Positions 2,973-52,678 of a stretch of DNA of 64,000 nucleotides are shown in pieces. The notes under the pieces were generated by a model, which was not told the DNA's origin, searched no databases, and saw nothing but the letters and a program-made list of their open reading frames with translations. Position numbers and translations under genes: made by a program. Within the stretch, counting starts at the first letter, position 1. Each line of letters begins with the position of its first letter. Source of the DNA: Anagrus nilaparvatae (lineage: Eukaryota > Arthropoda > Insecta > Hymenoptera > Mymaridae); assembly GCA_022575985.1 (NCBI GenBank), contig JAKSXM010000129.1:248001-312000 (forward strand), read 5' to 3'.

Positions 2973-2975
2973 CAA

Positions 2976-3225
2976 TATATATTTTTTTTTTTTTTTTTTT
3001 TTAAACGAATTCACGGGACGCACCCTTTACAACAATTTTTAATGTAAATATTTTTACATTTGTAAATTATTATTTTATCAATTAATTAATTTCAAATTAA
3101 TTAATTGATTGTTTCTGCGGCTGCAGTCCGACTTACCTTAAACATTCAATACTCGTATTCACATGAACATATTATGCTCATTACGTAAGGAAAACTGCAG
3201 GAAGAACCCACGTAGAGTATCGGGA
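2976..3225 (-). mobile_element. Poly(T)-headed insertion in the LINE, possible SINE or retrocopy
   Basis: The LINE frame is interrupted between residues ending KKKRFVK and resuming IMIKKVKEINLQRQ. The intervening ~250 bp begins, on the plus strand, with about 24 T residues. On the minus strand it is therefore a short unit ending in poly(A), as retroposed sequences do. Its composition is GC-richer than its surroundings (for example CTGCAGCCGCAG). I do not recognise the family and found no clear tRNA-type promoter boxes. Confidence 0.45.
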
Positions 3226-5013: not shown

Positions 5014-5551
5014 AACATTAAACTATGGTTAACCAAAAACTTTTAGAATTATATAAAATTGAGTAGAATAAGTAATATAAAGAGGTTAAATATGTTAACT
5101 TGAAGAGCCTATTAAATAGTTACCATTAAAAAAATAAAAACTTTACAGAACAAAATATTTTTATATTATATTAAGATTTAATATTTGTTAATTCTTGCAG
5201 CTATAGCAGCTAGTTCCACGCTCGGACTACGAGTCCATGTGGACATATTGTATAACGTAGTATATATTTTATATGTATATGTAACCAATATATGTAAACT
5301 TATGTACAGCTAGTTAATAATAAATAATAAATAAATAAATAAATACTTGTAAAATATTTTTCCACCCTATAAAAATATACAATTTTTCAAAAAAATCGGG
5401 CATTGACAGTTAGGTGACCTTAATTGTCAGACTATCCAAAGTCTACCAGTTCAGCCAAATTTCAGCTTAAATCTTACCCCCTTCTTACTAGTTTATATTT
5501 CTAAAATACCCATTTTGAACTTTTTTTTTATAGAACATCCAAATATCTTAC

Positions 5552-5631
5552 CAATGGCCCTGGATCACCTGCATCGCCTTTTTTTCCTTTTTTACCCCTT
5601 CTTCCAATAGCTCCTGGAATCCCTGGCGGCC
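5552..5631 (-). CDS. Internal exon of a collagen-like host gene
   Basis: The 80-bp minus-strand exon has a pyrimidine-rich acceptor (TTTTCTATTTTAG) and a consensus-like donor (G|GTAAGA). With one G supplied by the previous exon it reads GPPGIPGAIG, then RRGKKGKKGD, then AGDPGPL: nine successive Gly-X-Y triplets with no interruption. Such triplets form the collagen triple helix. The basic-rich run (RRGKKGKK) followed by acidic triplets is common in collagen and collagen-like membrane proteins. Entry phase is 1 and exit phase 0. This is the clearest host coding sequence here. The surrounding intron is full of transposons. Which collagen-like gene it belongs to cannot be decided from one exon. 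Confidence 0.8.
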
Positions 5632-6640
5632 CTAAAATAGAAGAAAATTAATAATTAAGAACTGTGATTTAGTTAAAACCAAAAAAATATGAAAGAAATA
5701 CTAAATATTTGCTTAACAAGAAACATAAATAAAATTAAGAAAAATGAAAATTAATATATATTGTAAAAAATTAAAATTAATATTTATTGTATTGTAAAAT
5801 ATCTGAGTAAATTTGTAAATAATCTTAATCTATGTATAATAAAATAAATGATTACTCAAAATTTATTATTTTTGATTGTATTCTAACTAAAATTTATGGA
5901 GCCCTCTATGGACGAAAATAAATAAAAAAAAATTAAATTTAAATTAATATTCAAAGAAATACCTCTAAGAATTTTTTTAATTTTTTAAAAGTATTTTAAT
6001 AATTTTAAAATATTTTCCTTAGAAGTTAAAGATGGAAAATGCAAAAAAGAAATCCATATAAGGGGTTTTTCTGAATATCTAAGAGATCTTCTGAGAAAAG
6101 CTGGTTTGCAAAAATCCCTTTGGAAAAATGCTATCGATTTAACTTTTTTTTTATTTATGCTCTTGGTTTAAAGTAAAAACTATTAAAACACGGAAAGTTT
6201 CAAGAAAAATTTAAAAACTCATAAGTAGTCACTAGAATCACGATATATCTGAAAAAAGTTATTACTAAAACAAAAATACCAAATTTCTCTACGTTTGTTG
6301 TTCATTCTTAGTGAAACCACTTTTTTTTTATTTTAATTTTTTATTACAGAGAAATTTCTATATTCTTCAGTTTTTTGTTCATCTCCGTTTTTCGACATTT
6401 ATTTGTCAAAAAAGAATTTAGTATGTTAATTTTGTTTTAAGGTTTCTATCGTTCGTTATAAACGCTGCATAATATAATTATTATTATATTATTTTATTAC
6501 AATAATAGCTCAGGTTTGAATCTTGTACAATACTAATTTTTTTATCCCATGAAAAAAAAACAATTTATTGATACATTCTTTTTTTTGCATTTGTTTTTTA
6601 AATAATACTCTTAAATAAATATTTAAAAAATATATAATAT
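5632..6640. other. AT-rich intronic-looking DNA, no gene seen
   Basis: This lies directly upstream (minus strand) of the collagen exon. It holds only AT-rich simple sequence and T-runs. I see no open frame, RNA gene or repeat boundary. Confidence 0.5.
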
Positions 6641-6641
6641 A

Positions 6642-6802
6642 TTTATCCACTTTAGCCCTGGAAAGCATACATTAAATGCACCTATACTATGCTGGAATAA
6701 CTAAAATTATTAAAGTACTTTCATGCGTATGTCTTAGTGTCTCGATTTATACAAAATGTGCGTACAACTATGGCTTATTTTCTAAGGCTAAAAGTGGATA
6801 AA
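6642..6802. mobile_element. Small MITE with ~16-bp terminal inverted repeats
   Basis: The ends are inverted copies: TTATCCACTTTAGCC at 6643-6657 and GGCTAAAAGTGGATAA at 6786-6801, one indel apart. The interior (~130 bp) has no coding capacity. The target duplication is unclear in the AT-rich flanks. The superfamily is unassigned. Confidence 0.5.
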
Positions 6803-6937
6803 AAATATTAATACACACGAGACAGAATGTACCTATCATCCGACACTTATTCATATAGAGTTTTTTATAAGTCGGCGTTAGACAACTCTATATAAATATA
6901 TAAATTAGCGTTCTGTCTCTAGTGTATTAATATATTA
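6803..6937. mobile_element. Palindromic MITE (~135 bp)
   Basis: It abuts the previous MITE. Left arm AATATTAATACACACGAGAC and right arm GTCTCTAGTGTATTAATATA pair over about 27 bp with few mismatches. A second inner pairing is formed by CATATAGAGTT and AACTCTATATA. The whole unit could fold into one hairpin. Confidence 0.5.
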
Positions 6938-7739
6938 TTCTAACTCATTTATTTGTTATTTAATGTCGATTTTAAAGTTATTTAATGTTTAATTTGAAAA
7001 TTTTATTATGTCATCTAAAGAAACTTTCTTTGAAGATTTTCATTATAAATTAAGATGCGCTTCTATCTTTTTTTAGTGTAAAAATTATGACTAAATACTA
7101 TAATGAATTTCTTCAACAGGACAATAATCAAATTATCGAAACTGTCGCTTACTAGGCGAATTTTATAAAGTGAATTTTACAATAAACAACAATTTGTTCC
7201 ACATTGACTAAATAAAGGCTATGACCGGATCTATATACTAAATCGGCCCACAAAAGATATTTAAAAACTAATTGTATTAGGTCAAAGTGCACCTAAAAAA
7301 AATAGGATCCTGAAGTTTTCAGACCTCCAGATGCCTTCAGCTCAGATTGGCAGCCTATTAATGACAAAAAAAAAGTAAATTTTTAGTCGTCATTCTGATA
7401 CTCCCGTGGTAAAACGATTTTGTCAAAATGATCTTGGGACCTCTCATTCAAAAGGTTAGACAATATACTTTCAGATAAAATTACATTTAAAAGTGATTTT
7501 AGTGCATCCTTTTGATTGGTAGACCATAAACCGTCCTAAATAAATTTTTTTCCTTCTTAAATTTCAACTTTGGCAGCGATTTAAAAAAAATTGAAAGATA
7601 TACCCATTCTATTTTTTTTTTTAACTAATGAAAAATAAAACATATTTTTATTTGCGATCATCCGCGCTTAAAAATATTTGGGGCAACATGGTCAAATAGC
7701 TTGAAAGCTCCATAGCTCTATTACACAGGCACACAAAAA
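6938..7739. other. AT-rich DNA, no gene seen
   Basis: No supported gene or repeat boundary is visible. T-runs and short AT-rich stretches only. Confidence 0.4.
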
Positions 7740-8800
7740 AAAATCATGTACCAGAGGGTAGACCCCCTGGTATGGGGGTTTTTAGTAGTGCTAAAACCGA
7801 AGATGGCTAAAGAAATGCAATAAAATTAGCCAATTATTAACCAAGGGCACCCGCCCTTCCCGATTTGGAGGCCAGAGACTGTGGTCCCAGAAATGCAACG
7901 GAGTTCTGAAATTTGGAACAAAGTAGCAGAGTACGTAAGGGCCACCTTGTTGAAGAAAAAGGAGGAGGGCTTTCTATCGTAGATAGCTCTGCTGTCACTA
8001 GGCTAGGGGAAGGCAGCGGCCAGTTGCTTAGGCTGCGCATCCCAAACTAAAGTTATACCTGAAAAGGGAGTTCCGGTTTGGGGCAAACAAGCGCAAGGGA
8101 GTTTATAGTGTATTTATCCAGTAAGAATCTGGGGCGTAGGTCTCCCAGTTGTACACTTTGTGCAACTGGGTGGTCATGGAAACTTGCGGGTCTTTAAGAC
8201 CCGCAAACACTCCATGGCTGATGCAAGATTCACAAGATTCCCTTGACAAAAAAAAAAAAAACATGAAATTTTCGCGATCCGCGCGCAATGACACATACAC
8301 ACACTTTAAGAAACCGCGCTGATTTAATATCTGCTGCTGGATTTGTCTACTTGAGGATGATTTCTTCGTTGCGTCTGCCCGGATGCTGTTTAATTATATA
8401 GTCTTGTGGATGCTGGTACAGGATTAAATCGTCTGCTGTCAGCTGTCTCACTTCACACGATCGAGTTTTTGTTTTATATTAGAATATTATTGCTATGCGA
8501 TTTAATGGTGACCGTAGTCAGGTAATTTAATATAACTTATAGATTCGTATAAATTAAGGTTTCACTATTAACAATAATTGTTACTTTATGAAATTATTTA
8601 ATTAATGAAAAAATGGCTCCAAGGCAATACGCGTATCTTTACCAGTATTTTTGGCACTTGGAGGTGCATAACCGTTACTTGCTCCATGGACATCGCACGT
8701 GACGTCGCGGTTCAGAGCTGAAACCGGAATGCTCGTTTTGCAAAGGAAACGGCATGGTCTTCTATTACAGCGCCGTGCGGCTGATACTATAAATCATTAT
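7740..8800. other. GC-richer island with strong hairpins, identity unknown
   Basis: Base composition changes abruptly to near 50% GC in 7840-8300 and 8630-8780, unlike everything around it. Three near-perfect hairpins are visible: 7750-7771 (ACCAG/CTGGT plus an inner GGGT/ACCC), 8144-8170 (CCCAGTTG/CAACTGGG) and 8185-8205 (TGCGGGTCTT, one T, AAGACCCGCA). Short open stretches occur on both strands, for example minus 7837-8040, and a minus-strand frame ending ALEPFFH near 8605. None matches a protein I know. It could be the 5' part or UTR of an old retroelement, or an acquired sequence. Confidence 0.4.
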
Positions 8801-9170
8801 CAGTCGAAATGAAAATCTATAACTTTTATTTTTTGGTGCTGCTTTTTATTGATCTTTTATTAGAATATTTTTAAACTAAAATTATTATATTTTAAATTTT
8901 GATTGTTGCTAGGCGAAAACATTCTGTCTTGAAGACTTGAGGGGCGCGAATATGTGTGTATGTATGTTTGCAAATATTAAATAATTGTAACAGGCAAAAA
9001 TGCTTCGTTACAACTTTTAAATACAAGTATTTTATAAGTAGTATATATTATAGTTTTGAATATTTAATCACATGATTCATAACATTTTTATATTAATAAT
9101 TTAAATTTAATAAAACTAATTAACAATAAAATCAAGTTTCAACTAGAAACTCACATTGGTTAAATCATAC
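8801..9170. other. AT-rich DNA, no gene seen
   Basis: Low-complexity AT-rich sequence between the GC-richer island and the candidate exon. Nothing else is visible. Confidence 0.4.
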
Positions 9171-9234
9171 CTGGGAATGTGGTTAGCCTGATGCTTCAAA
9201 ATAAAGAAGTATGCGTAACGGATTTCTCCATTTC
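9171..9234 (-). CDS. Candidate internal exon of a host gene
   Basis: The 64-bp minus-strand segment has a long pyrimidine-rich acceptor tract ending TTCGTAG and a donor CCCAG|GTATGA. One frame is open throughout: NGEIRYAYFFILKHQ then ANHIP, entering with two bases and leaving with two (2 + 60 + 2). GC content is above the local average. The strand agrees with the collagen exon at 5552-5631, but the exit phase does not match that exon's entry phase, so an intervening exon would be needed if both belong to one gene. I do not recognise the peptide. Expression evidence would be decisive. Confidence 0.35.
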
Positions 9235-9622
9235 CTACGAAAAAAAAAATATATATTTTTGTTAAATATTATTCTAAATGATTTGGTTAAGAAGTATTTC
9301 ATAGGGAGGAGCGAAATTTTTTAAATCACTTTTTACATTTAATGCACGACTTTTATATTTCTTAACATAGAACAATCCAATCACTTTTTTTTTAAATTAC
9401 TTTCTTGGTGCAAAATTTCAAATACCTTGAAGTCAAAATCATATTTGTTGCCATGATTTTTGGTTTCTTTCTTGAGAAGAGAAATCACATCATTATAGTT
9501 ATTCTCACTTTTATTATAGTTTTTTTTATGTTGAATTTTGAATAAAAATGTGACTTTTTTGAAATTTTTTTATTTTTAGTCAAGAGCAAATTCAATAAAT
9601 ATTTTATTTAAAATTCTTTTTC
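9235..9622. other. AT-rich DNA, no gene seen
   Basis: T-rich sequence with no supported feature. Confidence 0.4.
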
Positions 9623-9840
9623 TGTACTGCGGCCCGAAAGTACGTATTTCCCGGACACTGCGCGTCCGGCAAAGACGTATTTTTTCGCCACAGTCGCAGA
9701 AAAATTTTGTACATTCCTCGGCCATAAACAAAGAATGACCCAAATAGCAGTTTACCATCCTCGGCTTCGCCTTGGAAGGTAATTTACGTGCGATTTGGGC
9801 CATTCTTTATTTTTCTGGCCTAGGACCGTAATATACTATT
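9623..9840 (-). repeat. Short interspersed repeat, copy 1 (uninterrupted)
   Basis: On the minus strand this runs from AATAGTATATTACGGTCCTA to GGGCCGCAGTACA. It is the same unit as 34460-36112 on the plus strand, where a foldback element interrupts it. Both copies contain an internal inverted pair, CCCAAATCGCA and TGCGATTTGGG (imperfect in this copy), about 45 bp apart. Both also hold a GC-rich right part, GGACGCGCAG. A 75-codon minus-strand frame across it is probably accidental: by my count most differences between the copies change the amino acid. It sits just downstream of pseudogene B and might be one of its ends; this is unproven. Confidence 0.6.
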
Positions 9841-9888
9841 TTTTAAATGTAAGTAAGATCAAAATGTTTGTACATGTAGAAAATAAAA

Positions 9889-12800
9889 TTACATTTTAGA
9901 CATTTTTGCTGGAGGTTCATCACTCGAGTCTTCATTTATATCATTGCAGTCACTGCAATCAAGTACATCGTCTTGTTCTTCATCTATCAAAAAAAATGAT
10001 TATTCTTCAAGCTCGATAACTTCTGGCGCAGCTGTGGAAATTTCTGCTGGCGCTAAGTCTTCTATAATTTTACTATATAAGCATTTGTTACCTTTGCAAA
10101 TTTAACAAAATTTATTGCACTTTAGACCTAGCTTTCTGCAGCCACACCTATTTGCGCATATGGTTTTGCACGAACATGTTAACTTTTTGAGTATGTTTTC
10201 AGGAATCATAGCTTCATCTAAAAATATTGGCTCTAAAATATTTTCTTGTGTATTTTTTCTTCAACATTTATATCTATGCCATATTTGGAACTGCAGGTAG
10301 GCTCGTTCTACATGCTTTTTAAGTGCCCCTTCTGTTGGTGGAAATAAATTCAGAGAAATAGATTTTAGTTGTTCGGGATAATAATATATGTATTCATTCA
10401 AAGGAACAGCTGTTGTAACTTTTTTAAAACTGTAGAGTTTTTTTACAATGTCAATGCCAACACTATATGAAGTATTTTGGTCTGTATTGGGGTCATTAAT
10501 AAGCTCTGATCTTTTTCTTAAACCATGGTCCTCAGATAAAATTTGAAAAATTTTGGTTTTTCCTAAGTTGTAAAAAGAGGATGTTGTATCGCAACCACAC
10601 ATAGCATGGCAAATCAATAATACCTTTTTTAAATAATAGTCTAAAGAAAAACTGTTGGTATTATAAAATGTGAATTCATGAGGCTCTCTAGACTGTTTTT
10701 TTTTTTAAATATTTTCCTTGTCAACAGCAAATTAAGTATGTTGAGTTATCGATATCTTGTCCTATATTATAGCTCCTACAGTAATTTTTAGATTCTTGTA
10801 TGGCTATTTTTACTATTAAGCTGTCAGCATCTTCTGTATCTTGTAAGACTTTAATCCTTAAATCATCTGGTAATAAATTACACTTTTTTTTGATAAAATG
10901 ATTCAATATATTTTTATTCTTGTCATTACTCAGCAAATATTCAGTTTTATATGACAATTTATCTTGTAGTGAGAATTCAATATCAGGCAAAAAGTTTTTC
11001 TAGCTCTGCTTGCTTTTTCGTATGACTTAGTACCTGGTTCTTGAGGGTATCCATCAAAAATTGTAACACACAGTGCATGTTTCGTAATATATTCGATGCA
11101 TCTTTTACAAATTTTTTCATATGTAATAAATTTTTGCCATATGATCTTGTGCAATATATACCCTCCGTTTATCACATAGATTTCATCATCAGCAAGTGGT
11201 AAACATTTTATAGGTTTCAAAAATATCATATAATTTTGATTTTGGCGTGTTTCTAAACATGATTCCATCAAATAATGAAACTGAAATTGGGTCTAATTCA
11301 TACTTAAAATATTGCTGCATTTTTTTCCAATCTTCATTTGATTTTAAAAGACGAATAAATATTGCTTCTGAATTAAAATTTTGTACCTTGCCTCCTATGC
11401 GTACATTTGACTGCATGGTTAATAACGGTATGATTTTACTCTCTTTTTTAAACTTAACTGGAGTACATCTATTACCGATAATTCAAATCATTAAACCGTG
11501 GCTAATTTCAAATAAAGAATAGCAATTTATAATAAAATTACTTTTTAATCCAGATGATATAGACATTATATAAGGAACATTTGGGAATGAATAAATAAAA
11601 AAAAAATTTGAATTTCTTTAGAGTATCTATGTCGTCATCTACTCTACTAATTGTGGGATATTTGTGTTGTTCAGAAGATGTGAAATAAATACCATAAAAC
11701 TTGGTAAATGCAACTGTTAATTCAGCCAAGGCAATAAGGCAACCTATCCAGATTGTAATGCTCCCTTCAGTTAAACCATGGGTAACTAGACCTCCTTTAA
11801 TGTTAACTTGTCGCATGAGACACTGTTCAATCGTCTGATCTGTGAACACTCCTGAGAAAAATTTATTTGTTCGCCAAATAGTAAAAAAGCCTTCTTCAGT
11901 AAATTTTTTGTAATCACCTGGATCCATAACTTTTTTTAGGTTCAGCATTTCTTGAAGATATAAATAACCATATTCTGCGCACTTATAATGAAAAGCCGCA
12001 TAAAAAATGGACAATATTTTTTGGCAAGTATTAAGACGTAGTTGCCAATTTCCGCATCGTTCAGCTTTTATAAATTGCTTAACTAAGGTCGTCATGTCAA
12101 ATAGCTGTTTCCTAAGCATTGCAGTGGGACCTTTGGTTGCTAAATAATCATCTTCGAAGTCGAGGTAATGAGGGAGTAAAGAATTCCCCTCTTAAAAATT
12201 GCTCATAATAAAAAGACGTACTTTTCAAAAACGGGAGTGATTTTTTTTTCCTTTTTTCCCATTTCTAAAAGGAAAGAATATTGGCGCAACATATGTGTAC
12301 TCTTAAACAATAAAATCGTAGATCATCAAAGCACGTAATTCTTCATAATTCAAAAGTATTTATATTTTTAAAATTTTGTGTGTTATATATTGCATATATG
12401 GAAATAAATATAAGTATACAAGTAACATTTTGATAACTTAGAAGAAATTAAATTAAATAAATAGATTTAAATAAAAATAGACAAAAATTTATAATAAAAA
12501 TTTTTTTTATTATAAATTGTTAAAAAAATTCTGTAATTAATAAATATAACTAGAAAATAAAATCTTCAGGTTGAAAAAATTTCAAAAATTTGAAAACAGG
12601 ATACCATTAGTCTATTATATACGAAAAATGTGTTCTACATATTATACAAAAAATAATTATGTGCGTCGATTGTATATTATTATAAATTATTCTTTTCAAT
12701 ATTAATAATAGAAAATTTTTGAATCTAATGCACACCTAAATTTATCACCTCATGCTGAGATACAATTTTTTTTAAAATGAAATGCATGCATTGACTTTTA

Positions 12801-15375
12801 TATAAAAATAATGGTTATATTGTGTATAAATAAAATTTAAGAAAATAATATAATTTTTTTGTTTTTTAAATCTTTTTTGCATTATTACAATATTTTGTGG
12901 TTAAAAAAAATTATTGTTTCTTTTATTATGTTCAATAGTTTCATTTATCATATCTAACATGATATTAAATTATTGAAATTATTCCGCATAGATATTTTAA
13001 TTGCTATAGCAGTATACATGCATACTTGCTGCGCTTGAATTTTGCTTGAATTGCTTGAAAGCTTTAAATAAGCTTTTTCTGTCATTTTTAAGCAATTCCA
13101 GCAAAGTAGCTTCCAGATTTAGCCATATTTTTTTATAAATTTATTATTTAATATTAATTCATTAATGAATTTATCTAAAAATTAAATTTTTTTTTTTATT
13201 TTTAAAAAAATTTAATTTAATTTTCCATATACACAAAATCACAATATGTATTAGAATATATTATATTATTCAATATTTTAACTATAACTTTAATATGAAT
13301 ATATTTGCATAAAAATTATAAAAAATAAATGTTTTTTAAGCGCGCAAGTCTATTATTATATTTTATATAATATAAACGTATGGTTAAAACGAGGGAGTTC
13401 CCTGATTCCCTTGCTCTAGGAGGTGGGGTGTACATTTTGGAAAATATGTTCTCCGGAGAGTTTTCCTTTCGCTTTCAATAATTGAGTTTTTTAAAAACCG
13501 GGGATAAAGGTGGGAAATTACTCTACTCCCTCGCTCCTTCGATTGCGAAAATCGAGCTTCTCGAGTAGGAATGCCCACTGAAAATTTTTTTAATAGAAAT
13601 CAAAGCAAAATAGGTATGTAATAATTCCTGTAAACCACTACCTTGCATTAGTGTACCTATACAACCCATATAGCTCATTAACTAGTGAAATCAGCCAATT
13701 TTAATAATTACATTTTCTAAATAATGATAGCTTCATTTAATTTTAACCAATTTGATATATAGTTGAATATCAAAGGTAATAAATACGTGTTTTTGTTTCA
13801 ATTAATTACATTTTAAGTGGGTCTAATTTAAAAAAGTATAAATTTTGTTATCGTCCGTAGACATTACAAAACGTAATGGAATCAATCGAGATAATACATA
13901 TTTTTCAGCTTCGTGAATTTTTTCTAAATATTAACTCCAACCATAACATCCACGATAATAGTCAAATTTTGACAATAACCATAAAAATTCTGCCTTATGA
14001 ACGTTTACCTTTATATCAATTTTATTCAGCTCGCTAAGATTTATAAATTGTATGGATGATAAACTTACTTTCTTTTCAGGGCAAAATGTTTGCAATGATG
14101 AATATCCAAATTTTCCTAAAGCAGTTGCAGCAGGTAGCTTTGGCAGCCTTTTTTTACGAACGTTTGTACTCATTGCTGCATTTGGGGTTATCACCAATGT
14201 AGAACCCAACACATGTAACGTATGAACTGTAACCAGTTGGGGTCTACTTGTTCCAATCAGCGTTATCACTTATAATTTGAGAATATCCTTCAATTACTTT
14301 GGCATGATTATCGTTTAATAATATAGATGCCATAAATAGTTGCGCTTAATTTTTTATCGAAAACGGCAGAGAGAACTAACAGTAAATTAGAAATGAATCC
14401 TCTAGGAGGTACTGCTTGCATTATCATATGTGCAATAGTGGTAATTTTTCGGTCCCAAGTATTTAATTTATTGGTTTTACGATCTCGAATTAATTTTTCT
14501 AAAAAAACTCGTAAGATTTCTGGAATAAAAAAATTTATATTGTCTAAAAATTTATCTGCGGGGTCATAAGAATCTTTAATGACATGAACTGCTCTTATAT
14601 CTTATTTCCGTAGCTATTTTAACAATTTCGAATCTTTCATTGGAATCCTTTTTATTTTTTCCTTCTTTAGAACCTTTTTTTCTCCCCCAATGATTAGTGA
14701 ATATTCTGATAATATTAATATATGTATATATAAAACTGTACCATCTTTTTGTATTATGAATTCTGAGATTGCCAACAAAAACTTCTTGAATTCTTTTTTT
14801 TTTTAATAAGATGTCCATTGAGGGTTTTCACCTTGGCACGATTCACAAATTTCCTTAAAACTAAATTGGCATCCTTCTGCGTTCTTATTTAAAAAATTTT
14901 TGATGTACATTAATAGATAGTTAATTATTTTTTATACAAACTTTTGTGCCCAAATATAATATTTTTTTATAACATTTATAACGATAACATGCATTGATCT
15001 CTACAAAATTATTATTTGATTCAAGCAGATTTTTTAACATTGCATAATTGTTATCAGGAATTGTATGTAATACATCCAAAATTTGTTGCCTTATTTCATT
15101 AGACTGAAACTCTCTAATGCCTTTTTTACGGATTTTTTTTTTTTTGCAATCAATTCATCAAAAGCATTTACTCTACATATAAATCAACTATCTTGAATAC
15201 AAAAATCTGAATCGGTTTCATGTTCAATTTTCATTTTTTGATTAATATAAGTTGCTGCATGGTTTAAACATGTATATGTTTTTTTACAATTGACATAAGC
15301 TTGAAGATTATTAAAATTATTAATTGATTTATGTGTACCATCATTTCTTACTTTGTTGATGGATAAAAAAAAAAT
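9889..15375 (-). pseudogene. Pseudogene B: decayed relative of the element-A protein
   Basis: Minus-strand pieces follow the same order as the element-A protein. An N-terminal block near 15180-15370 reads AYVNCKKTYTCLNHAATY. Middle pieces follow at 13931-14820. The AER domain at 11538-12119 has FIKAERCGNWQLRL and GFFTIWRTNKFFSGVF. A block with RIGGKVQNFNSEAIF lies at 11189-11416, and the acidic region follows at 10721-11271. MCGCDTTSSFYNLGKTK is at about 10560-10615. A Cys-rich tail at 10100-10190 reads TCSCKTICANRCGCRKLG, then KCNKFC, and an acidic C-terminus ends at 9889. GCDTTS plus the Cys-rich tail mark the family. Many stops and frameshifts, plus an insertion at about 12164-13850, make it a fossil. 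Reaction unknown; a PIN/FEN-like nuclease is inferred from the family motifs. Confidence 0.7.
12164..13850. mobile_element. Probable insertion splitting pseudogene B
   Basis: Gene B is collinear up to about 12163 (HYLDFEDDYLATKGPTA, reading upstream) and resumes only near 13855. The intervening DNA is AT-rich. Near each end are related strings in opposite orientation: GAGGGAGTAAAGAATTCCCC at 12170 and the complement of GAGGGAGTAGAGTAATTTCCC near 13510-13540. That suggests terminal inverted repeats of a non-autonomous element. Exact ends and a target duplication could not be fixed, and a GC-richer tail at 13390-13580 may belong to the element. Confidence 0.4.
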
Positions 15376-16424
15376 ATTAAATAATTAACTTTTTCTTTTG
15401 AAATTAAAAAACTGAAAAAAATTATTTGAATCGAATTTGAATAATGTACGTGAAATAATAGTTAAACCGAGGTGAATTATAGTTTTGTAACAAAAAAATA
15501 ATAAAAACAATATTTTATTAGCAAACGCAAGTAGATACACGCCCGACAAAACAAAATAAGTTTATAGAGGCTATTCTTTTGTGAACCGCTTTAATTTTTC
15601 CTCAAATTTTTCATATACAGTGGCTGGTTATACTGTAATGTACTTTCGTTTGATTTTTTCAAACGAAACTCATTTCTCTCGAAAATAAAATCCAATTCTT
15701 TTTTTTTTTGCATTATAGCGTGGTGAATTTTAGTAGCAGACTATATTAATTTTACATGTACGTGAGAGTATGGGCGCAGGACGAACGTTGGTGTGTGTGT
15801 GATTAAACGCGAAATCTAGAGGGCATCGCCTTGCGGCACGAAAAGAGAGAGCAGACGGAACTTATGTATTTTTCCCTCTTTTATCTACTTCCTTCTTTTT
15901 ACCTCTCCTAAATTTTTATATATTCAGAACGTGCATGGCCCTTGGAATGATAAGTCCATCACGTGTTGATCGTAACATTTGGAGTTTTATTATATGAATA
16001 ATTTCTTGAATTAAAAGTAAAGTTTTTAGTCATTAGTATTAGTTATTATTGAAGACAAGATTGCAATAATAATTTTTGATTGCCTTCATCAAGATTTGGT
16101 ATTATTTGGCGAAATAAAATATTGGTTGCGGCTTATTGAAATATTTGGCGTTGGCGGTATCGATCAATTTATTAACCACGAGGCATCGACATTCTAATCA
16201 ATATTGGCGTTTAATATTATATTTTCTTTGGGATAATTAATTACAAAACCAAGCTTGGTATCCATCATTAATTTACAAATTGTGTGGCGTCAATCAAGAA
16301 TAAGGTATCATTTTGAGTATCGATATTTTTGTAACATTTTCATTAAGTTAATTGCGCATTGATTTCCTTCCTGTTCCTTAGTAATATTTTACATTAAAAA
16401 TTGTATAATTATAATTTGCCTTTC

Positions 16425-27929: not shown

Positions 27930-29544
27930 TGAAACCTTTTTAGTCCAGTGTGTAGCATTTCTAGTCACTCTATTTATTGTAATAATTCCCTCAAGTATAT
28001 CTTCAGGCTTTACCTGAATGTACACTTGTAGATCATCGGCATACAATAGACGAAAGATATTAGGATCTAGAAAGTCTTTCAAGTCATTCATGTATAAGCA
28101 GAAGAGGAGGGGGCCTAGAACCGAACCTTGAGGCACACCTAGGTTAATTTTACGAGAATCAGAAGATGTAGTTTTGAAAACAACTTTTAACTGTCTGTCT
28201 ACAAGATAGCATTTTATATAGATAGCAAGCTATAGGCCTAAAGTGAGATGGTAAGGTATAGATAGGAATTTTTTTTAGGGCAACAAGCAGTGATCTTTTC
28301 CAGGTCTTAGGGAAAACACCTTTCATCAGAGAGTCATTGAAGATGTGAACAACGTAGGGACCTATATTTGGTAAGGATATAGCAACCACATTATGGGGAA
28401 TGCCGTCAGTACGAGTTGCTTGCGTTTTAAAATGAGCTACGGCTAAAATAACATCATTAAATGTGACCTCACGGAATTTGAAACCTTCATCTGTAGTAGA
28501 CATGATTACCTCTTCTATAGCATCAGTATTTTCTGTATCAGATAAAGATACTTTACAGAAATGATCATTAATCGCATCTGGTGAGAAACCTTGTAGATCA
28601 CTCTTAGGATTAGGTAGCAAGCTTAGATGTTTAAGTTCACGCCAGAAGTCTTGCCCATTTGTCAGTGCTTCATCCAGGCAGTCGTGTATAAAAGTGTTCC
28701 TGGAAGTTTCAGTCAGTAACTCAGCTTTTTCGAAGATTTGTAGTAGTTAAGTCAAAAGTTGCTTATCTTTGGCTATGATATATTTTTTCTCTGTTGCCTT
28801 GCGTTTGTTAATTAGATGTTGTACTTCAGGGTTTACCCATGGTAGTTTTTTCTTTTTAGGATTGATGGTTTTTAAGGGTGCCAGTTCATCGATGGCAGAC
28901 TGCAAGTTGGAATTAAGACCATCAAGTAAGTTTTCTGTGCTGGATTCAGAATTCTGTAGGGGATTTCAGTGATAGTTAATCAGAAACCTATTGATATCTT
29001 CAGGTGGTATGATGTATAATATTAAATTGTCAATAAGAAAAGGTGTATTGTGGAGGCTTAGGCACAAATAAAGTAATTTCTACGACAATGATGTTATTGT
29101 CATTACTAAAGTTAGGTGGGAAGTTGTTGTAACTAAGGATTTTATCATTGTTATCGATGTATATATGATCAATCCAGGTTCGCGTTTCTGTCTTTCCATG
29201 TGGTCTATGAGTAGCATCATGCTTTACAATCTGTAGTGGAAGTTCTCGTGAGAGTCGTAATAAGTAACGTGAGTCAGGTTTGTTAAGTAAAAGGTCGGCA
29301 TTAAAGTAGCCAAGACTGATTTTATGGCTAAAAGTAGGGCAAAAATCACGAAAGTTAGTCATAAACGTTGTATCAGCTTTAATTAGAATATTTGGTGGCC
29401 TATAAACTAGGCAAACAAAAACTGGGGGTGTTTTGTCTCTTCAGACACTGCACATAAGAAATTCCGTCATAAGAGGTTTACCTACACCAGTTGTATCAGA
29501 ACAAGCCAGAATAATCGCTTTAAGCATATTTCGTATATATAATA
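27930..29544 (-). pseudogene. Second LINE, decayed, 5'- and 3'-truncated
   Basis: Minus strand. An endonuclease end at 29030-29362 has SLGYFNADLL (usual GDFNADLL, with Asp replaced by Tyr) and TRTWIDHIYI. Then come PWVNPEVQHLINKRK, an RT N-terminal part at 28159-28620 (TRTDGIPHNVV, FPKTWKRSLLVALKK) and RT core at 27918-28136 (PQGSVLGPLLFCLYMNDL and LLYADDLQVYI). This is a different subfamily from the LINE at 1.9 kb. Frameshifts and stops separate the pieces. It lies exactly between two Helitron segments, either through nested insertion or as sequence captured by a Helitron. Confidence 0.8.
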
Positions 29545-37995: not shown

Positions 37996-38866
37996 TTAGT
38001 TACAAGATCAGAACTTTGTTTGTGCAGCTGTGTAATTGCTCTAGTTTAATTTCATCAAGGCCTTTGACTCCATTGTACCAGACTAAATATTTAAAAATTG
38101 TAAAAAGCTACATCATTTTTGGCTCCTTATAGAGGAATTTTTCCAAAACTTTTGTCACAAAAAAAACAAAAAGCAAAAATTTTTTTCCCTTTGGACATAG
38201 TACCTAATATATTTTTAGGGGAGTAATAGTCATAGTACTAGTTTTAGGAACCTCGTTTATAATAATTTTTTTGGATCTCATACTTAATTTTTCAAAATAT
38301 TTTTTTTTTTTTTAAAGTAAAAATAAAAAAACTGCAATTATTTATTTATTTTTATGTAATACCTTATATAATTCTATGAAAGTACTTATATCTAAAAATT
38401 TGGTTTTTACTTGATATGTCGAATCGGATAGTTAATTTTTAAAAAATTTTTTTCTTAAATTTTTTTGCATAAACAAGTAAAAAAACAGCAATACCTTTTT
38501 TCTTTTTGGATGCAGTACTTCATTTTTTTTCTGTACTAATTTTGGGAATATCCTATATTTTAAAAATATGTTTTTTGATAATTTTTTTGCTTAATATTTC
38601 TTGCATAAGAAAAATAAAAAAAAAACTATTCGTTGGTTTATTTTTGAACGTAGTATCTAATTTTTTTCTAAGAAAGTACTATTATCTGAATAGTATATTT
38701 CAGTATGTATACTAAAAGGTTATCCATTTAAAATCTGGTTTTGTGTCTTCATATTATTATGATAACGATAAAAGGTTATTAACAATTGGTGATGTTCTAA
38801 ATAATACTAAACCTGTTATCAAGTAAGTTTTATCCAAGTAATTTTTAAAAAGTATAATTTCAATTA
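37996..38866. other. AT-rich DNA, no gene seen
   Basis: Degenerate ~120-bp similarities occur (TTTTTGGATGCAGTACTT / TTTTTGAACGTAGTATCT type), possibly an old tandem repeat. No gene. Confidence 0.35.
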
Positions 38867-38868
38867 TA

Positions 38869-39720
38869 GACCTGGCGTAGAGCCCCGTTTCGTAGACAAA
38901 TTTTATCCTTGATAGGTCGATGGAATTTTCCAACGGGTATTTATGTTTTTTGGGTCGCTGAACCCGAATATGGTATCAGATTTTACCGAAAATGGTCCAG
39001 TTGCCCGCACTTGGCAACTTTCGGTTAATTTTCGGAGATTTTTTATTTTCGCAAGGGTTACTTATGTTTTTCGGCTCGCTGAACACGAATATGATATCGG
39101 TTTTTACCGAAAATGGTCCAGTTGCCCGCAATAGGCAACTTTCGGTTAATTTTCGGAGATTTTCTTATTTTCGCAAGGGTTACTTATGTTTTTCGGCTCG
39201 CTGAACACGAATATGATATCGGTTTTTACCGAAAATGGTCCAGTTGCCCGCAATAGGCAACTTTCGGTTAATTTTCGGAGATTTTTTTATTTCCGCAAGG
39301 GTTACTTATGTTTTTTCGGCTCGCTGAACACGAATATGATATCGGTTTTTACCGAAAATGGTCCAGTTGCCCGCAATAGGCAACTTTTGGTTAATTTTTG
39401 GGGATGTTTTTATTTACACGAGGATTACCTATGTTTTTTGGGTCGCTGAACACGAATATGATATCGGTTTTTAGCGAAAATGGCCCAGTTGCCCGCAATA
39501 GGTACCTTTTGGTTAATTTTCGGAGATTTTTTTATTTTCGCAAGGGTTACTTATGTTTTTCGGGTCCCTGAACATGAATATAACATCAGTTTTTACTAAA
39601 AATAAGTGCCCACAGTAGATAATTTTAAGCTATTTTTTTTAGATTTTCTAAACATTTTCTATTATTATTTATGTTTTTTGGCTGGTTAAACTGGAAAACA
39701 ATATCTCTTTTTACCGAATG
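38869..39720 (+). repeat. Left TIR with about seven ~122-bp subterminal units
   Basis: Unique terminal ~71 bp, then units starting near 38940, 39061, 39183, 39305, 39428, 39550 and 39669, becoming more degenerate inward. Each unit contains TCGCTGAACACGAATATGAT, TTTACCGAAAATGGTCCAGT, TGCCCGCAATAGGCAACTTT and GGTTAATTTTCGGAG. Overlapping short frames through it are products of the repetition. Confidence 0.9.
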
Positions 39721-40083
39721 TGCGCTTAAACTTGTATTTAATAATTTAATAAGTTTTTCCTATACAACAAAGAATCAATAAAATAATTAGTAAATTGAAA
39801 ATTAATATAAAAATTAATTTTTTAATAACTAAACAATAATATACAGATAAAATTTTACAATATTTTAATAATCAATAATAAATTAATTGCAAGCTGATTT
39901 TTACATTAAATATTTAAATACAGTGAAAAATATTTTCTATAAATATGTAATACAATAAATCAATATTTTTATTGTTTATTTTTTGGAAATAATTAAATTA
40001 TTGGATAATTATTTAAAATTTAATTATTCTTTAAAATGTACCTAGGCAGAATTATAAACTATCGTAATACTTTAATTATATTT

Positions 40084-43000
40084 TCAAAACTTCTTATATT
40101 TATTCTTGCAACTGTTTTCATTTTGACATGCGCAAAATGAAATACAAGATACACCTTCTCGAACACAATTGCAAGACTTTCGTGAACATGTTTTACAATT
40201 GCAACTAGGTATTAATTCTTGTACGGAAGGATATATGTTATCACAAACTCTTTTTGGAAGTAAACAATTTTTACTTATCACGTAACCATACTCAGTAGGA
40301 TCTAATTTTTCTAATATATCATCTAGGCAATGAATTTGATTGTATGTAGCAAAAAATGCTCTCAGAATGTGAAATTTAATAGTCTGAGTAGTTGGTGGTA
40401 GATCAATAATTGTATTATAATTTCCTAAACAATACTTTTCATATCGTAGTTTATCAAATGTTGTTATCAAATTACTTTTAGGTGAAAATACTTTTACCAA
40501 ATAAGTTTCGGCATTATTTATATTATTTACCAGATTGTTTGTATCTAAAAAGTTTTTAAGTAAGTAAATACGTTTCAGGAAAATCTTTTTTTGTAGCATA
40601 AATATCTTACTTTGACCAAATTGCATTAAATATTTCTTCGGATCGGCTTTCATGTCCTTTTTTTTGGTGCCTATTTTGCTCGTATAATCACTTCCAGTTA
40701 AAAAATGGACTGCAGACAAGCATTGACACAAATTTCCCCTTAGTTTCACAGCCAGAACGTGAAGTGGAATTTTTCTTACTTTAGCACCTGATCCAGCTTT
40801 TATCCATAACTCCTTAAAAATAAAAAGCAAGACATGTAATTATGATTCTTTTTATAAGAATTGTATTAACTATAATTTTTTTAAATTTATATAGCTTCAA
40901 ACCATTTTCTCTAAATTTATTAAAAAAGTACAGTGCAAGTACTAAAATATCTGTATCAGTAGACAAAATGAATACGTGTGTAAACTTTTCTAACACTGCG
41001 TGATTAATATGTAGCATAATTCTAGTATCAGCTTCCTCAATATCTTTATTTTGAAGTTTAAAAATCCGTAGTTCATTATCTGGTAAATATGTTGTTTGGC
41101 AACAAAGTTCATTAGTTGCACTAAAAACTAACTCAATCCCTGGAAACAAAGTATTTCCGTTCCTTAAAATGAAATTTCTAAGAAATTTTTGAAGTAATGT
41201 TTTATTTTTATCAGATGACCAAAACAATTTTTCTTGCACAGGCATAGGAGTGTCTTCATAAATAGCATTAAGGTCTATTGATTTTTCCCCATAACGATAT
41301 AATCTTTCTCCATTTTTAATGGAAATTTCAATATAAGAATCACAAACAAAATCAATTCGCGTTACTTTAATCTTTAAGTTTTCACTGATATACTTGCAAA
41401 ATACATTAGCAAAATCTTTGAATGCAGTTAATTGTTTCCATTTTAAAACGCGACAAACATACATTACATCAATTACCAAACAAAAGTTGTCAATATTTTT
41501 CGGGAGACTTATAATTTTATAATCTATTTTCTTTTCTAGTTCCAATGTTAATTTACTTTTGTCTGTCATTTTTTTAATCAAATTATTTTCGTCAAATAAG
41601 CTATTGATTCGTGATAATTCAAAAGTAAATAACTTTTTTAAATTAAAACCCCGTTCTCTTGCTAACTCAATGACCCGTTGGCTAATCTTATTCTCCTTAA
41701 CAATGGATAGAGGTTTTGCTGGAGTATTTGTAATTTTCGTGAACGCTTTAAATGATGGGAAATTGACTCTGTGTATTGTTTCTGATAAGGCTTCTTCTTT
41801 ATTAAAAAATCTTTTTAAATTAAAATCATTAAAGAGTTCGCATCCAACCTGAAATACTTTTAAAATGGTCTCATCTACATCAGGTGCACATTTCTCTTGA
41901 GTTACTATATTACAAAGTTCTGAAGATTAAAATTTTTAAACGGGTTAACTTTATTACAAATATAACTCGTTAATTTCTCTATTTGCAGTTCAGTGTTGTC
42001 TATTTTTGAATATTATAAATCGTGATGCTGGTTAAGCTCAATATCATAATTTTTAACATAAGTTATTTCTTCGAAAAAACATCTTATAGCCAAAATTTCA
42101 TGAAAAATTAATTCCCAAGCTGCTACAAACTGTTTATTTTTAATAACTCCTATTATTCCAGATTTTGTACAACCTTGAGCTCGATTTATTGTTTGCTCTA
42201 AAGCCTGATCTGGCGAAACAGATGTAAATCCAACTTTTTTTCTTTTAACAGTAAAAAATCCTTGTTTAAATTTTTCATAAAGCTCAGGTGATGTTGTTGG
42301 CAATGCCAACATATCTTGTAATTGTATTGCACTGTATCTTATGTAATTAGTTCGATCAAATACATGAAATATTGGTTGGACTTTTTTTAATGTTTCAATA
42401 TACAACTGTAAATCACTTAAACGTTCTGCTCGTATATGATCTCGTAATACTTGTATTAATTTTAATACGTTTGTCCAATATTCAAATAGTTGAGACTCTT
42501 TGCATCTTTTTTTTACATATTCTGAGAAATCTGAATAAATTTTTTCACAACTAAGATTAAGCATCTCATACAATCTTTTACTTTTACCATTATTTTTTTC
42601 AATAGAGTCCTGTAATGATTTTACAGTTGCTAATTCATTATTATATTTTCCTTCAGAATTTTCTTTAAAAAATGATGTCAATTGAAGACGTAATAATGTT
42701 TCCCCAAGAAGTAGAAACGAATTTACCGATCTAGCATAGTTAGAACCGTTGAAAATTTGTTCTGTAACTCCTGGGCCATATAAATCAGTTTCTATAAACA
42801 TTAAATCAACGCCACTACCTGTTAAATACTTTCCTATGCAGGCAAGTAAGACTTTACACATATAAAAACCTCCTAGCATCACAGTGATATTTTTAAATTT
42901 ATCAGGACAAAGGAATTTTAGATGCCTGGCAATTCTATAAACTCCTTCATCACAAAAAACTGCTAAGTTCTTTTGATCAATCTGATATAACAAGTTTTCA

Positions 43001-44702
43001 AAATTACAAAGTGCAGTGTAAACTGATGAATACTCTGTGACAGAATACGGTAATACCGGCAAAAACCCAACAGTTTGTACAACCTTATTATCAGTATTTA
43101 CAATAGAATTATAAGAGGACCATAAAGGTGTATTCTGAATTTCATCCTTACCTCTGATTCGAGTTAAATTTTCCAAATTCATCCTGCTTAAGACCCAGCA
43201 TAAATCTTCAGTATTTACAACTTTATATAACCCTTCTGAGAGATTAAGGTTTTTACAAGTGTAGTTTTCTGGTAAAAAAATTTTTTGTAAAGGTTTATAA
43301 AAATTTTGTAAAACTTGGCATTCTAAATCAACATTAAAAACTCTGTCCTTGAAATTAATTGCAGCTTTCGATAGATTTATGTTTTCATGATTTATTTTTG
43401 AATCTTCTTGAAATAAAACCATAACTGTATGGTGGGTATCAGAGTAGATCCTTCATGATCAAAATTGTCAAATCCCCCAATTGTATACTTGTCTTTTTTA
43501 AAATGAAGTGGTAAAGGAACATTACTAATAGATGTTTTAATAGTTAATAAAGCAAGACTAGTACGAATTCTTCTAACTTCGTCATAAGATATACTGAACC
43601 CTATACGGTGAAGACTATTAGTGAGCAATTTAGCTCTATAAGTACTATGAATAGTAATTGCTGTTGAAACATGAAGAGGGGTTTTTTTAGTCCCATTATT
43701 GACAATATAGTATATAGTTTGAAATAATGAATTTATTCTTAAATACTTTTTTACAGTAATTTTTCGTTTTGAAGAATTTAAATCATCATCATTGTCTTCA
43801 TCAAAATCAAAAGGGTTATCAAAATTTTCTCTGTCCAAAAAATTTTGTTGCTAAAAACCTAGTAATGCTGACAGAAAAATTAATATAGGTGGTGGAATTT
43901 TTGTTTCAATCCAAGATTTTTTTAAATCTTAAACATCACAAAACTTATCTTCCAAATTAAAATCTACATTCTTACAACATCCTTTTATTCTAGAGGCAGT
44001 ATTTTTTATAGAATTCCGGTAATACAATTTCTCTGCAAATTGTTTCTTTGTTAAATCCGTATAGAAAAACAATGAAGATTTCTTACGGTCAGATGGATTA
44101 AAAATTGTTATTTTATTAGCATAATTATTAACCATATAAACTCTAACATCTCTATTACATAAAATTTCATTAGAAGATAGATTTTTTGCTTTTTCTATAA
44201 TATCAACAAGTGAAAATATTTCGCCATTCACAATTTCTGACATTATGTTGTCAAAAATTTGTGATAAAATGTTTCGTTTTTTAATTAATTTACTTTTTGA
44301 TAAAGTTTCATCTAAAGTTGTATCTGATAAATCATCAAGATTGCTTAACAGCGACGACGTATGTAAAGAATCTTCAAAAGAAAACTCATCGAAATGGTCA
44401 CAATTATTTGTCTGTGACGAAATATCACTGCTCCTAACAACAAGCATTCGCTCATACGCTCGTTCGTACTTTCTTAAGCAATCAGGATGATAATTTAGTC
44501 CTTTTTCAATCACATTATCAACGTTTTCAAAACTTCTTAATCTGTCAGAAACACAATCTTTATTTATTTCAGCAATCTTAAGCAACTTTACTACATTACT
44601 TTTTTGTGTTAGCCTACATTTTTTACTTGATTTATTTTTATAAATATTATTACAAATAAAGAATTTTGAACTATCACCTATTACACAGTTATTATCACTC
44701 AT
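40084..44702 (-). pseudogene. Element A protein, FEN1/XPG-like nuclease candidate (lightly broken)
   Basis: One frame of ~1,500 codons in the order of the minus strand. 43929-44702: Cys/His segment ending YHPDCLRKYERAYERM. 43392-43838: GGFDNFDHEGSTL. 42013-43422: central region with RDHIRAERLSDLQLYI and GFFTVKRKKVGFTSV. 40814 to ~41925: VIDVMYVCRVL, IEEADTRIMLHINH and STDTDILVLAL. 40084-40830: ELWIKAGSGAK, FLTGSDYTSKIG and a Cys-rich tail (CNCKTCSRKSCNC, CISFCACQ). The acidic series D...E-x-D...DxD...GSDYT matches the order of metal ligands in FEN1/XPG/PIN nucleases; this is inference. Breaks: TAA 43929-43931, TAG 43851-43853, TAA 42013-42015, and frameshifts near 43410-43440 and 41900-41925. 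The join near 40812-40870 looks like a 58-nt intron. Confidence 0.75.
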
Positions 44703-44929
44703 TGTATTACAAAAACTTAGAAATATCGCTCCGAATACAAAAAAAATCGTAATTTTTGTTCAACTGCAAAAAACAAACTTAATTTCTAGGTTACAAAGTT
44801 TATTTATTTGTCCTAACAATAACAAAAACGCATCAATTTCGATTTTTAAATAACTCAAAATATTTTTGATTAATTATTTGTATTTAAAAAATATATTTTT
44901 TTGGTACTTTAAAACCGATATAATATTCG

Positions 44930-45391
44930 TGTTCAGCAACCCGAAAAACATAAGTAACCCTCGCGTAAATAAAAAAATCCCCGAAAATTAACCGAAAGTT
45001 GCCTATTGCGGGCAACTGGACCATTTTCGGTAAAAACCGATATCATATTCGTGTTCAGCGAGCCGAAAAACATAAGTAACCCTTGCGGAAATAAAAAAAT
45101 CTCCGAAAATTAACCGAAAGTTGCCTATTGCGGGCAACTGGACCATTTTCGGTAAAAACCGATATCATATTCGTGTTCAGCGAGCCGAAAAACATAAGTA
45201 ACCCTTGCGAAAATAAAAAAATCTCCGAAAATTAACCGAAAGTTGCCTATTGCGAGCAACTGGACCATTTTCGGTAAAAACTGATACCATATTCGGGTTC
45301 AGCGACCCAAAAAACATAAATACCCGTTGGAAAATTCCATCGACCTATCGAGGATAAAATTTGTCTACGAAACGGGGCTCTACGCCAGGTC
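44930..45391 (-). repeat. Right TIR with about four subterminal units
   Basis: Inverted counterpart of 38869-39720. Complete units occupy about 44938-45058, 45059-45180 and 45181-45302, with the unique terminal segment at 45321-45391. It has fewer units than the left end, so the arrays have expanded or contracted independently. Confidence 0.9.
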
Positions 45392-45954
45392 TATTAATTA
45401 TTCTTTAAATTTTTAGAAATCATTTCGGTTCAATATGTTATGCATCATCTTTACTAGGATTAAATTCAGTTGTTAAATTAATAATAAGCTTAAGTGATAT
45501 TATCAAATAGAACAAATACTACAATAATATGGGCAACAAAATTATTTTTATTAATAATCAGTATAGCGCTACCATCTGGTTTACATATAATAACAATAAA
45601 TAATTTATGATTATAATTTTGATAAATCAATAAATGAAGTATTTAATCATATTAATAAAAAACCAAACAAATATTTATTATTATCTGTTGTAAGTATTAA
45701 TTTAATTTTATTAACTTTTTAAAAATTCTTAAACTTAAAATTCATATTTTTACAGTTATCCATACTTATAAATGCTGGATTAATGGTTATACCATCTGTC
45801 TGATTCGTCTGTCGTGAAAATAGTCGTCTGCCGTCAGCTGATGTATCTTAAGTTATGTTTACTTTATTTATTTTTCTCTATTTATTTATAAACAACTCAT
45901 ATAGTTTTATTGTCATAAATTAATTAATTATTTATTTTTTATTACTTACTCTCT
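45392..45954. other. AT-rich flank of element A, no gene seen
   Basis: No supported feature. Confidence 0.4.
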
Positions 45955-50662: not shown

Positions 50663-51388
50663 ATGGAGCCTAGACTGAACAGCGCTCAGAGTTTACCATC
50701 AGACTCAATTTCAAATACTTTTGAATTTATTAAATCATTGTTTGACAACAGCATTTATTACAAAATTAAATTACTCACACGTACAAAAAGAAAATTTACC
50801 ATCGCCTGTGCACATCGTCGCTTTTTACTAGCATTCCGAGAAAATGACAAACTTCCAAAGCATCTGCAAAACATACATGGAAATTTGAAACATATACAAT
50901 TGTTAAGTAATTATGGCAACACATTTTTCCAGAAAACCAAGGAAACTTTTCAGAAAAAATTACTGAACCTAGAAATTGATGACATCAATATTCATGTAAA
51001 TTTTTTGAAAAAAGCCATTAAAAACTTAGAGCTTTTTCTCATTGATCATTTAGGTATTGACTTAGTGTCACACATTAACAAAATATATGACACACATTTA
51101 AAAATACTGAATGAAAAAATAATTGTAAAGAACAATAATAAATTAAACATCATAATGGGCAAAGTGCAATACTCAAACAATCCCATAATAAATCCCAATA
51201 AAAATTGCAACAACAACGAATCTAACAATACAAATAGGAATAATTGGTTTGTCAACTTGACTAATCATCAAATACCAAAAAATGTGATTGATACTGTTGC
51301 TCTAGGGCAAAAATTTGCAACCATATCTAGTCTAAATAACAAGAATTCAATCAACACAATCAAAAACGTTGAAAATCTAGTATTTTAA
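50663..51388 (+). pseudogene. Penelope ORF, N-terminal part (left copy)
   Basis: 241 codons from ATG. It contains the conserved NWFVNLTNHQIPKNVIDTVA block that precedes RT in Penelope-like elements. It is about 95% identical by eye to the right copy, then ends artificially at the inversion junction (NVENLVF, stop). Upstream coiled/basic region (TRTKRKFTIACAHRRF). It lacks RT and endonuclease, so it is non-functional alone. Confidence 0.8.
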
Positions 51389-52678
51389 TTCATTATTAAG
51401 TAACTGCACTAAGAGACCTGACTCATACTTAGCAAATTTATGTGTAGGTGTATTTATTGTGGAAAGTACAGGTCTAAATTTGTAACGTCTGAAACCTGCC
51501 TCATCGATGTAGATTTTATGAACTTTTGGTAAGCCATATAATTTAGGTAGTACGGTGTCGAATTGTGTCAGACTGAACCTATGATATTCTTTTTCCAGGA
51601 AGCCATTGATATTCCAAATTGTGAGAAACTCTTGAGTATTTTTCCTTAATTCTTCAAGTGGATTCTTGTCTAACTTTAAATATGTGGTCTGATCATTGAC
51701 AAGATCCTCCATTTCTTTCATATAATCAGTGTTGTACAGAGCCACGTTCATGTTACTTTTGTCAGAGTTGGTGAAAAGAATATTATCATGCTCTTTAAGA
51801 TATTGTTTTGTTTCTTTGGAATTTTTTATGAATAATTTATCAATGACATTCATGTGTTTGTTTTTCCTATTTAAATGATTGTTTATGTTGGCTATGGTCC
51901 CATGGCGAATCTCTTCTACTTGCTCTTCAGGAAATTTATAAATATTCAAGAGATTTTTAACGTTTTTGATTGTGTTGATTGCATTCTTGTTATTTAGACT
52001 AGATCTGCTTGCAAATTTTTGCCCTAGGGCAACAGTATCAATCACATTTTTTGGTATTTGATGATTAGTCAAGTTGACAAACCAATTATTTCTATTTGTA
52101 TTGTTAGATTCGTTGTTGTTGCAATCATTTTTATTGGGATTTATTATGGGATTGTTTGAGTATTGCACTTTGCCCATTATGATGTTCAATTTATTATTGT
52201 TCTTTACAATCATTTTTTCATTCAGTATTTTTAAATGTGTGTCATATATGTTGTTTATGTGTGACACTAAGTCAATACCTAAATGATCAATGAGAAAAAG
52301 CTCTAAGTTTTTAATGGCTTTTTTCAAAAAATTTACATGAATATTGATGTCATCAATTTCTAGGTTCAGTAATTTTTTCTGGAAAGTTTCCTTGGTTTTC
52401 TGGAAAAATTTGTTGCCATAATTACTAAACAATTGTATATGTTTCAAATTTCGATGTATGTTTTGCAGATGCTTTGGAAGTTTGTCATTTTCTCGACATG
52501 CTAGTAAAAAGCGACGATGTGCACAGGCGATGGTAAATTTTCTTTTTGTACGTGTGAGTAATTTAATTTTGTGATAAATGCTGTTGTCAAACAATGATTT
52601 AATAAATTCAAAAGTATTTGAAATTGAGTCTGATGGTAAACTCTGAGCGCTGTTCAGTCTAGGCTCCATAATGACCAT
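51377..52678 (-). pseudogene. Penelope ORF, N-terminal part and start of RT (right copy)
   Basis: 433 codons. The N-terminal region and NWFVNLTNHQIP block are as in the left copy. Then come NIYKFPEEQVEEIR and the first RT motifs VLPKLYGLPKVHK and YKFRPVLSTINTPTHKFAKY, characteristic of Penelope RT (usual: GLPKIHK... RPIVSSINSPTYKLAKYL). It stops at the junction before the catalytic YADD region. No internal stop is present, which suggests a fairly young insertion. Confidence 0.85.

Follow-up and report, generated by a model that had tools for sequence, protein, structure and literature searches.

What moves a transposon-like element that appears to encode a FEN1/XPG-like nuclease, and among which transposons does it belong? 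The question is raised by an element of the hymenopteran Anagrus nilaparvatae (Mymaridae) lying in a 64,000-nucleotide stretch (positions 248,001-312,000) of contig JAKSXM010000129.1; this stretch as a whole is referred to here as the window. The original prediction was that the element carries the nuclease instead of a known transposase and represents a transposon type that could not be named. Our analysis leads to a different answer on both points. We consider it highly likely that the element, now decayed, belongs to the AcademX lineage (Academ superfamily) of cut-and-paste DNA transposons and derives from one encoding a DDE transposase together with a FEN1-like nuclease.

The element spans positions 38867-45393 (6,527 bp; Table 1). 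End-to-end comparison showed that 59 of the outer 60 bases of the two ends agree, and the five longest arm pairs of the inverted repeat are 89-98% complementary, as expected from the prediction of near-identical terminal inverted repeats (TIRs). The predicted bounds, 38869 to 45391, did mark out a real TIR element, but this extends two bases beyond them at either end. Inside the outer parts, the units of two subterminal arrays pair left against right and provide the remainder of the long inverted repeat. At eight other loci of the same family (family A) the arrays hold 2.5 to 10.6 units each, and at two loci of a second family (family B) the unit is 154-155 bp long and present in 2.5 to 3.3 copies. 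Fold-back style elements likewise have ends made of subterminal tandem repeats in variable number; the repeat-array ends seen here are alike in this respect, but the present element encodes a protein of its own.

Table 1. Features of the element and its flanks, in window coordinates
Position	Strand	Feature	Evidence
38864..38866	.	Target site duplication, left copy, TTA	Flanks of both ends
38867..38924	+	Left terminal inverted repeat, outer part, starts TAGACCTGGCG	59 of 60 outer bases match the right end
38925..39603	+	Left subterminal array, 122-bp unit, 5.6 copies	Tandem Repeats Finder; pairs with right array
40084..40812	-	Exon 2: end of the nuclease (GSDYT; acid 40687-40689) and Cys-rich tail (40203 downward)	
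40813..40894	-	Likely intron, 82 bp, within the nuclease; donor altered in the window copy	
40895..41926	-	Frame encoding the bulk of the XPG-like nuclease	Acids 41468-41470, 41339-41341, 41036-41038, 41033-41035, 41027-41029, 40955-40957, 40949-40951
42016..43452	-	Candidate transposase frame; candidate second D 42949-42951, E 42196-42198	Alignment of relatives
43395..43850	-	Candidate transposase frame, candidate first-D motif DNFD; D codons 43467-43469 and 43458-43460 (by eye)	
43932..44702	-	N-terminal part from ATG, C..C...H...C zinc-finger-like pattern (read by eye)	Sequence
44911..45335	-	Right subterminal array, 122-bp unit, 3.5 copies	Tandem Repeats Finder; pairing with left array
45336..45393	-	Right terminal inverted repeat, outer part	End comparison
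45394..45396	.	Target site duplication, right copy, TTA	Flanks of both ends

The length of the target site duplication was read from 11 two-ended copies, namely the window copy, L009, L010, L011, L013, L014 and L016 (family A), L015 and L018 (family B) and the short derivatives L046 and L047; L012 and L017 were left out of this count because the right end alone was detected at the threshold used. An exact 3-bp duplication was found in nine of the 11 copies, the window's included (TTA in four, AAG in two, TAA in two and CAT in one). Lengths of 1, 2 and 4-10 bp each fit none or one of the 11, and L013 and L014 have no 3-bp match at their flanks. When the right flanks were shuffled among the copies, nine or more matches arose in 6 of 100,000 trials, with a mean of 2.7. 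Hence the alignment of copies with their flanks, which upheld the TIRs, did not uphold the possible TA duplication that had been proposed. TA belongs to the inverted repeat itself (TAG...CTA), of which it forms the first two bases, and we rejected it as a duplication; the true one is of 3 bp.

PIF/Harbinger transposons combine a DDE_Tnp_4 transposase with 3-bp TWA (TTA-like) duplications, and the TTA or TAA seen in six of the 11 copies could be taken to indicate a PIF/Harbinger element that has acquired a nuclease. This origin was rejected and has, in our judgement, a nearly negligible probability, given the AAG (two) and CAT (one) duplications in three of the 11 copies, the TAG termini, and the lack of DDE_Tnp_4 among the families that Pfam scans of 5, 2, 6 and 7 sequences listed with an E of 1 or better.

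The coding region had been described as a single long minus-strand frame. It consists of five minus-strand stop-to-stop frames of at least 70 aa, with a likely intron across the nuclease, and the first of the two transposase frames (43395..43850) is shifted relative to the next (42016..43452). The window copy is thus decayed, with one splice site changed. More of the protein is preserved elsewhere: in L009 the frame stays open for 1,101 aa from the ATG, and L014 has the nuclease half split over two frames. Pieced together from these two copies, the full protein would comprise about 1,500 aa encoded in at least two exons, with the predicted order zinc-finger-like N terminus, DDE transposase, FEN1/XPG-like nuclease and Cys-rich tail.

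A script located the 82-bp stretch between STDTDILVL and GSDYT in six of nine family A copies, with GT...AG borders in five of the six, the exception being the window copy. In family B (L015) an 87-bp stretch with donor GTGAGT and acceptor TAG occupies the identical place. As two diverged families have both the place and the splice signals in common, the stretch is likely to be a spliced intron. The second exon of L015 is itself interrupted. In five further, diverged relatives, L040-L044, the transposase and nuclease regions lie within a single open frame (1223-1478 aa), and L045 retains the E end of the transposase together with the nuclease. The Cys-rich tail is present in L014, L015, L042, L043, L044 and L045 and absent from the L040 and L041 frames.

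In order to characterise the region upstream of the nuclease, we aligned seven sequences (alignment A3: L009, L015 and L040-L044), the window's frames not being included and L014 and L045 being omitted because they lack the first part. D183, D186, H199, D360, the motif LGxFH (L385, G386, F388 and H389), D608 and E612 are invariant in all seven rows, which also share, among other residues, N184, G194, W278, G406, G428, Y431, R433 and Q613. The layout resembles a triad with the first D in DNxD, the second D after a hydrophobic stretch, and the E in DxxxE 252 residues on. We infer from this conservation that the region is a candidate DDE transposase with a long insertion and a putative RNase H fold. 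The statement that no DDE signature could be found is therefore not confirmed, nor is the view that the nuclease replaces a transposase supported, as one gene encodes both the conserved candidate transposase and the nuclease. The window copy keeps the D and E candidates and has Y in place of the conserved H of the GFH motif, a further sign of decay.

Profile searches with this region gave weak matches. Pfam DUF6589 (PF20231) matched four of the seven transposase rows, with a best E of 0.0015, and three of six whole frames (L041, L042 and L044) at 12.4 to 15.6 bits, below the cut-off of 27. Given these matches to the transposase region in L041, L042, L044 and A3, a relationship may exist between transposases of this kind and DUF6589, a family without an assigned function; a literature search for its name returned nothing relevant. 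The five window proteins yielded weak Pfam matches only (best E 0.023), and L009 matched DUF2935 at E 0.0036, below its cut-off. Two designed proteins were the sole matches of the transposase profile among solved structures. Single-sequence AlphaFold models of two window frames had a mean pLDDT of 32.4 and, for the nuclease part, 33.5, too poor for use. Viral contigs scanned with L043 gave 36 pattern matches, of which none was confirmed.

For the nuclease region the original prediction fared better. The three motifs quoted for it occur in the stated order and are followed by the Cys-rich tail. In an alignment of eight rows (A4), two of them spliced copies, D39, D82, D186, D210, D212 and D272 are invariant throughout, in the order D, D, E/D, D.D, D of the metal-binding acids of FEN1/XPG nucleases; the E residues immediately before D186 vary across the eight rows. 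A profile of six relatives, searched against solved sequences at E 10 or better, found six, namely five EXO1 variants at E 0.037 to 0.31 (0.43 for the best stretch alone) and one designed protein at 0.86. The eight-row profile gave four matches, to the PIN-like MARF1 at 0.24 and to EXO1 at 0.28 to 0.30. The L015 protein alone found no nuclease among solved structures.

Searched against NCBIfam, two of the eight rows matched archaeal FEN1 (best E 0.0031), one matched Xni (0.0055) and one a 5'-3' exonuclease (0.014); unrelated families scored alike (oadA at 0.002, TIGR04372 at 0.0074), eight having turned up besides oadA. The family A row matched no NCBIfam model, and the six-row set had a similar outcome to the eight-row set. 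Pfam XPG_N was found in one of the six relatives at E 0.055, ranked below four unrelated families. The same six relatives recur in the six-row EXO1, NCBIfam and Pfam tests and make up six of the eight rows elsewhere, so these sets are not independent. Taken together, the recurrence of several FEN-type models, each weak, and the invariant acids support the assignment of the region as a FEN1/XPG-like nuclease. The part that aligns with EXO1 takes in the first acid, the stretch FDG..SxKxxERxRR and the GCD motif. Unlike EXO1, FEN1 and XPG, the region is joined to a transposase and to a Cys-rich tail, and a likely intron crosses it in families A and B.

If the nuclease were itself the enzyme of transposition, the upstream region would serve only in DNA binding or as structure. 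The nuclease acids are conserved as well as the D-D-E candidates are, and no profile in the Pfam scans names the upstream region a transposase, both of which would suit such an arrangement. However, the D...D...E upstream is invariant in seven of seven rows, and the duplication has a fixed length. DDE strand transfer produces duplications of one fixed length, and we know of no strand joining by FEN nucleases. We therefore regard the nuclease as a very unlikely transposition enzyme, and as the sole enzyme we rejected it on account of the conserved D-D-E region upstream.

The pairing of a DDE transposase with a nuclease, which we favour, has a precedent. The nuclease of AcademX elements is of the XPG type. 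The AcademX lineage and the Academ superfamily are commonly referred to Kapitonov and Jurka (2010) and Kojima (2020). The Discussion of one paper ties AcademX to a nuclease and to duplications of 3 or 4 bp, and places in the same superfamily AcademH, with a helicase and duplications of 9 or 10 bp (PMC10045372). In other papers, Academ is listed among the superfamilies with a DDD/E transposase (PMC9587614), is counted among DDE/D elements with a mean length of 5,565 bp in a curated bivalve library (PMC10294476), and has 1,097 copies in the whitefly Bemisia tabaci (PMC9143410); a further paper names a RecQ helicase for Academ and not a nuclease (PMC3627910). No paper combining Academ, XPG and terminal inverted repeats was found in the limited collection searched, which says little about the field.

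The element and its relatives share with AcademX a nuclease, TIRs and 3-bp duplications, and their candidate DDE transposase, in the same frame as the nuclease in L040-L044, would be a further common feature. Transposase, nuclease and duplications of 3 or 4 bp together are what the published description gives for AcademX (PMC10045372, in its Discussion), and it is on this agreement that our placement is based; the type that had been left without a name would thus have one. AcademH, of the same superfamily, was rejected: no helicase appeared among the families listed with an E of 1 or better when 5, 2, 6 and 7 sequences were scanned against Pfam, and a 9- or 10-bp duplication fits none of the 11 two-ended copies. 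The long ends are built here from repeat arrays, the unit measuring 122 bp in family A and 154 bp in family B. As the likeness comes from description and not from an Academ reference sequence, a separate, unnamed superfamily resembling AcademX in layout only can be envisaged. We hold it to be highly improbable, since the enzyme pair and the duplication length both fit the AcademX of that Discussion (PMC10045372). Very probably, then, we are dealing with a new family of an already known lineage, compared with AcademX by description, and not with a new type of transposon. The claim of a new type is thereby removed, the element and its relatives take their place in a known lineage, and the question becomes what job a flap-type nuclease performs when fused to a DDE transposase.

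In the mechanism that we propose, the protein would bind the repeated 122-bp units of the long ends. The DDE site would then cut the ends and join them to the target with a 3-base stagger, giving rise to the 3-bp duplication. The nuclease may act on a strand or a flap, trimming or cutting it while the element is excised or once it has been inserted; it could remove flaps or cut the second strand. In a stronger version, which seems to us unlikely, the transposase would have two nucleases, with the FEN1/XPG domain as its second and indispensable catalytic site, cutting the strand that the DDE site leaves. In Tn7, TnsA cuts beside TnsB and the strands are divided between them; to our knowledge no eukaryotic transposon has such a division of labour in excision.

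The genome offers material for this question: several families, including one whose frame is open over a long stretch, short derivatives that have kept the ends, and a clean 3-bp duplication to serve as read-out. The window's 469-aa transposase frame, searched against the 488.7-Mb assembly (393 contigs), matched 63 places at E 0.001 or better among 72 candidates scored, these being pieces rather than copies and including the window's own match; the nuclease frame matched 21 places among 45 candidates. The closest of ten loci compared, L016, lies on the same contig, with an identity of 99.2% across 6,533 aligned columns. At least 40 places (the best 40 of 747 candidates) match the element's first 119 bases end to end, at 97% identity or better; some of the unscored candidates may be inner units, because the query reaches into the first 122-bp unit.

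Two pairs of these 40 end matches, lying close together in opposite orientation, mark L046 and L047, which are 1,030 and 2,168 bp long, have a family A end on either side and show 3-bp duplications (CAT and TAA, respectively). Among the matches listed between them and the window element, all fall in the end repeats. Short elements of this kind suggest derivatives mobilised in trans. Family B is represented by L015 (positions 1318-8318), which has a transposase 40% identical to that of the window, an open frame of 1,406 aa, its own TIR with ends TAGTGGAGAAG, a repeat array with a 154-bp unit and a duplication of AAG. Mutual comparison of family A copies gave pN/pS values of 0.90, 1.40 and 0.89 for three pieces (7, 9 and 7 copies, respectively), which fit decay after insertion and lend constraint no support at that level; it is conservation between families that points to constraint on the transposase and nuclease regions.

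A second, far more decayed relative lies in the window at 10261-14601 on the minus strand. Within it, positions 11784-12098 are matched by the window transposase frame at E 1.1e-7, and pieces of transposase and nuclease (VINGGYILHK, FDGYPQEPGTKSYEKASRARK, DADSLIVK and CGCDTTS) can be recognised by eye in other frames with their order kept; of the 39 inverted pairs in 8000-16000, the 25 longest include no clear TIR. Elsewhere in the window, two opposed frames, 50663-51388 (plus strand) and 51377-52678 (minus strand), meet at 51377-51388 and encode near-identical protein over their first approximately 200 residues. They have no Pfam match at E 0.01, and our guess, made by eye, is a Penelope-like or similar reverse transcriptase. 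A 153-aa minus-strand frame at 28159-28620, again with no Pfam match at E 0.01, resembles by eye part of a non-LTR reverse transcriptase.
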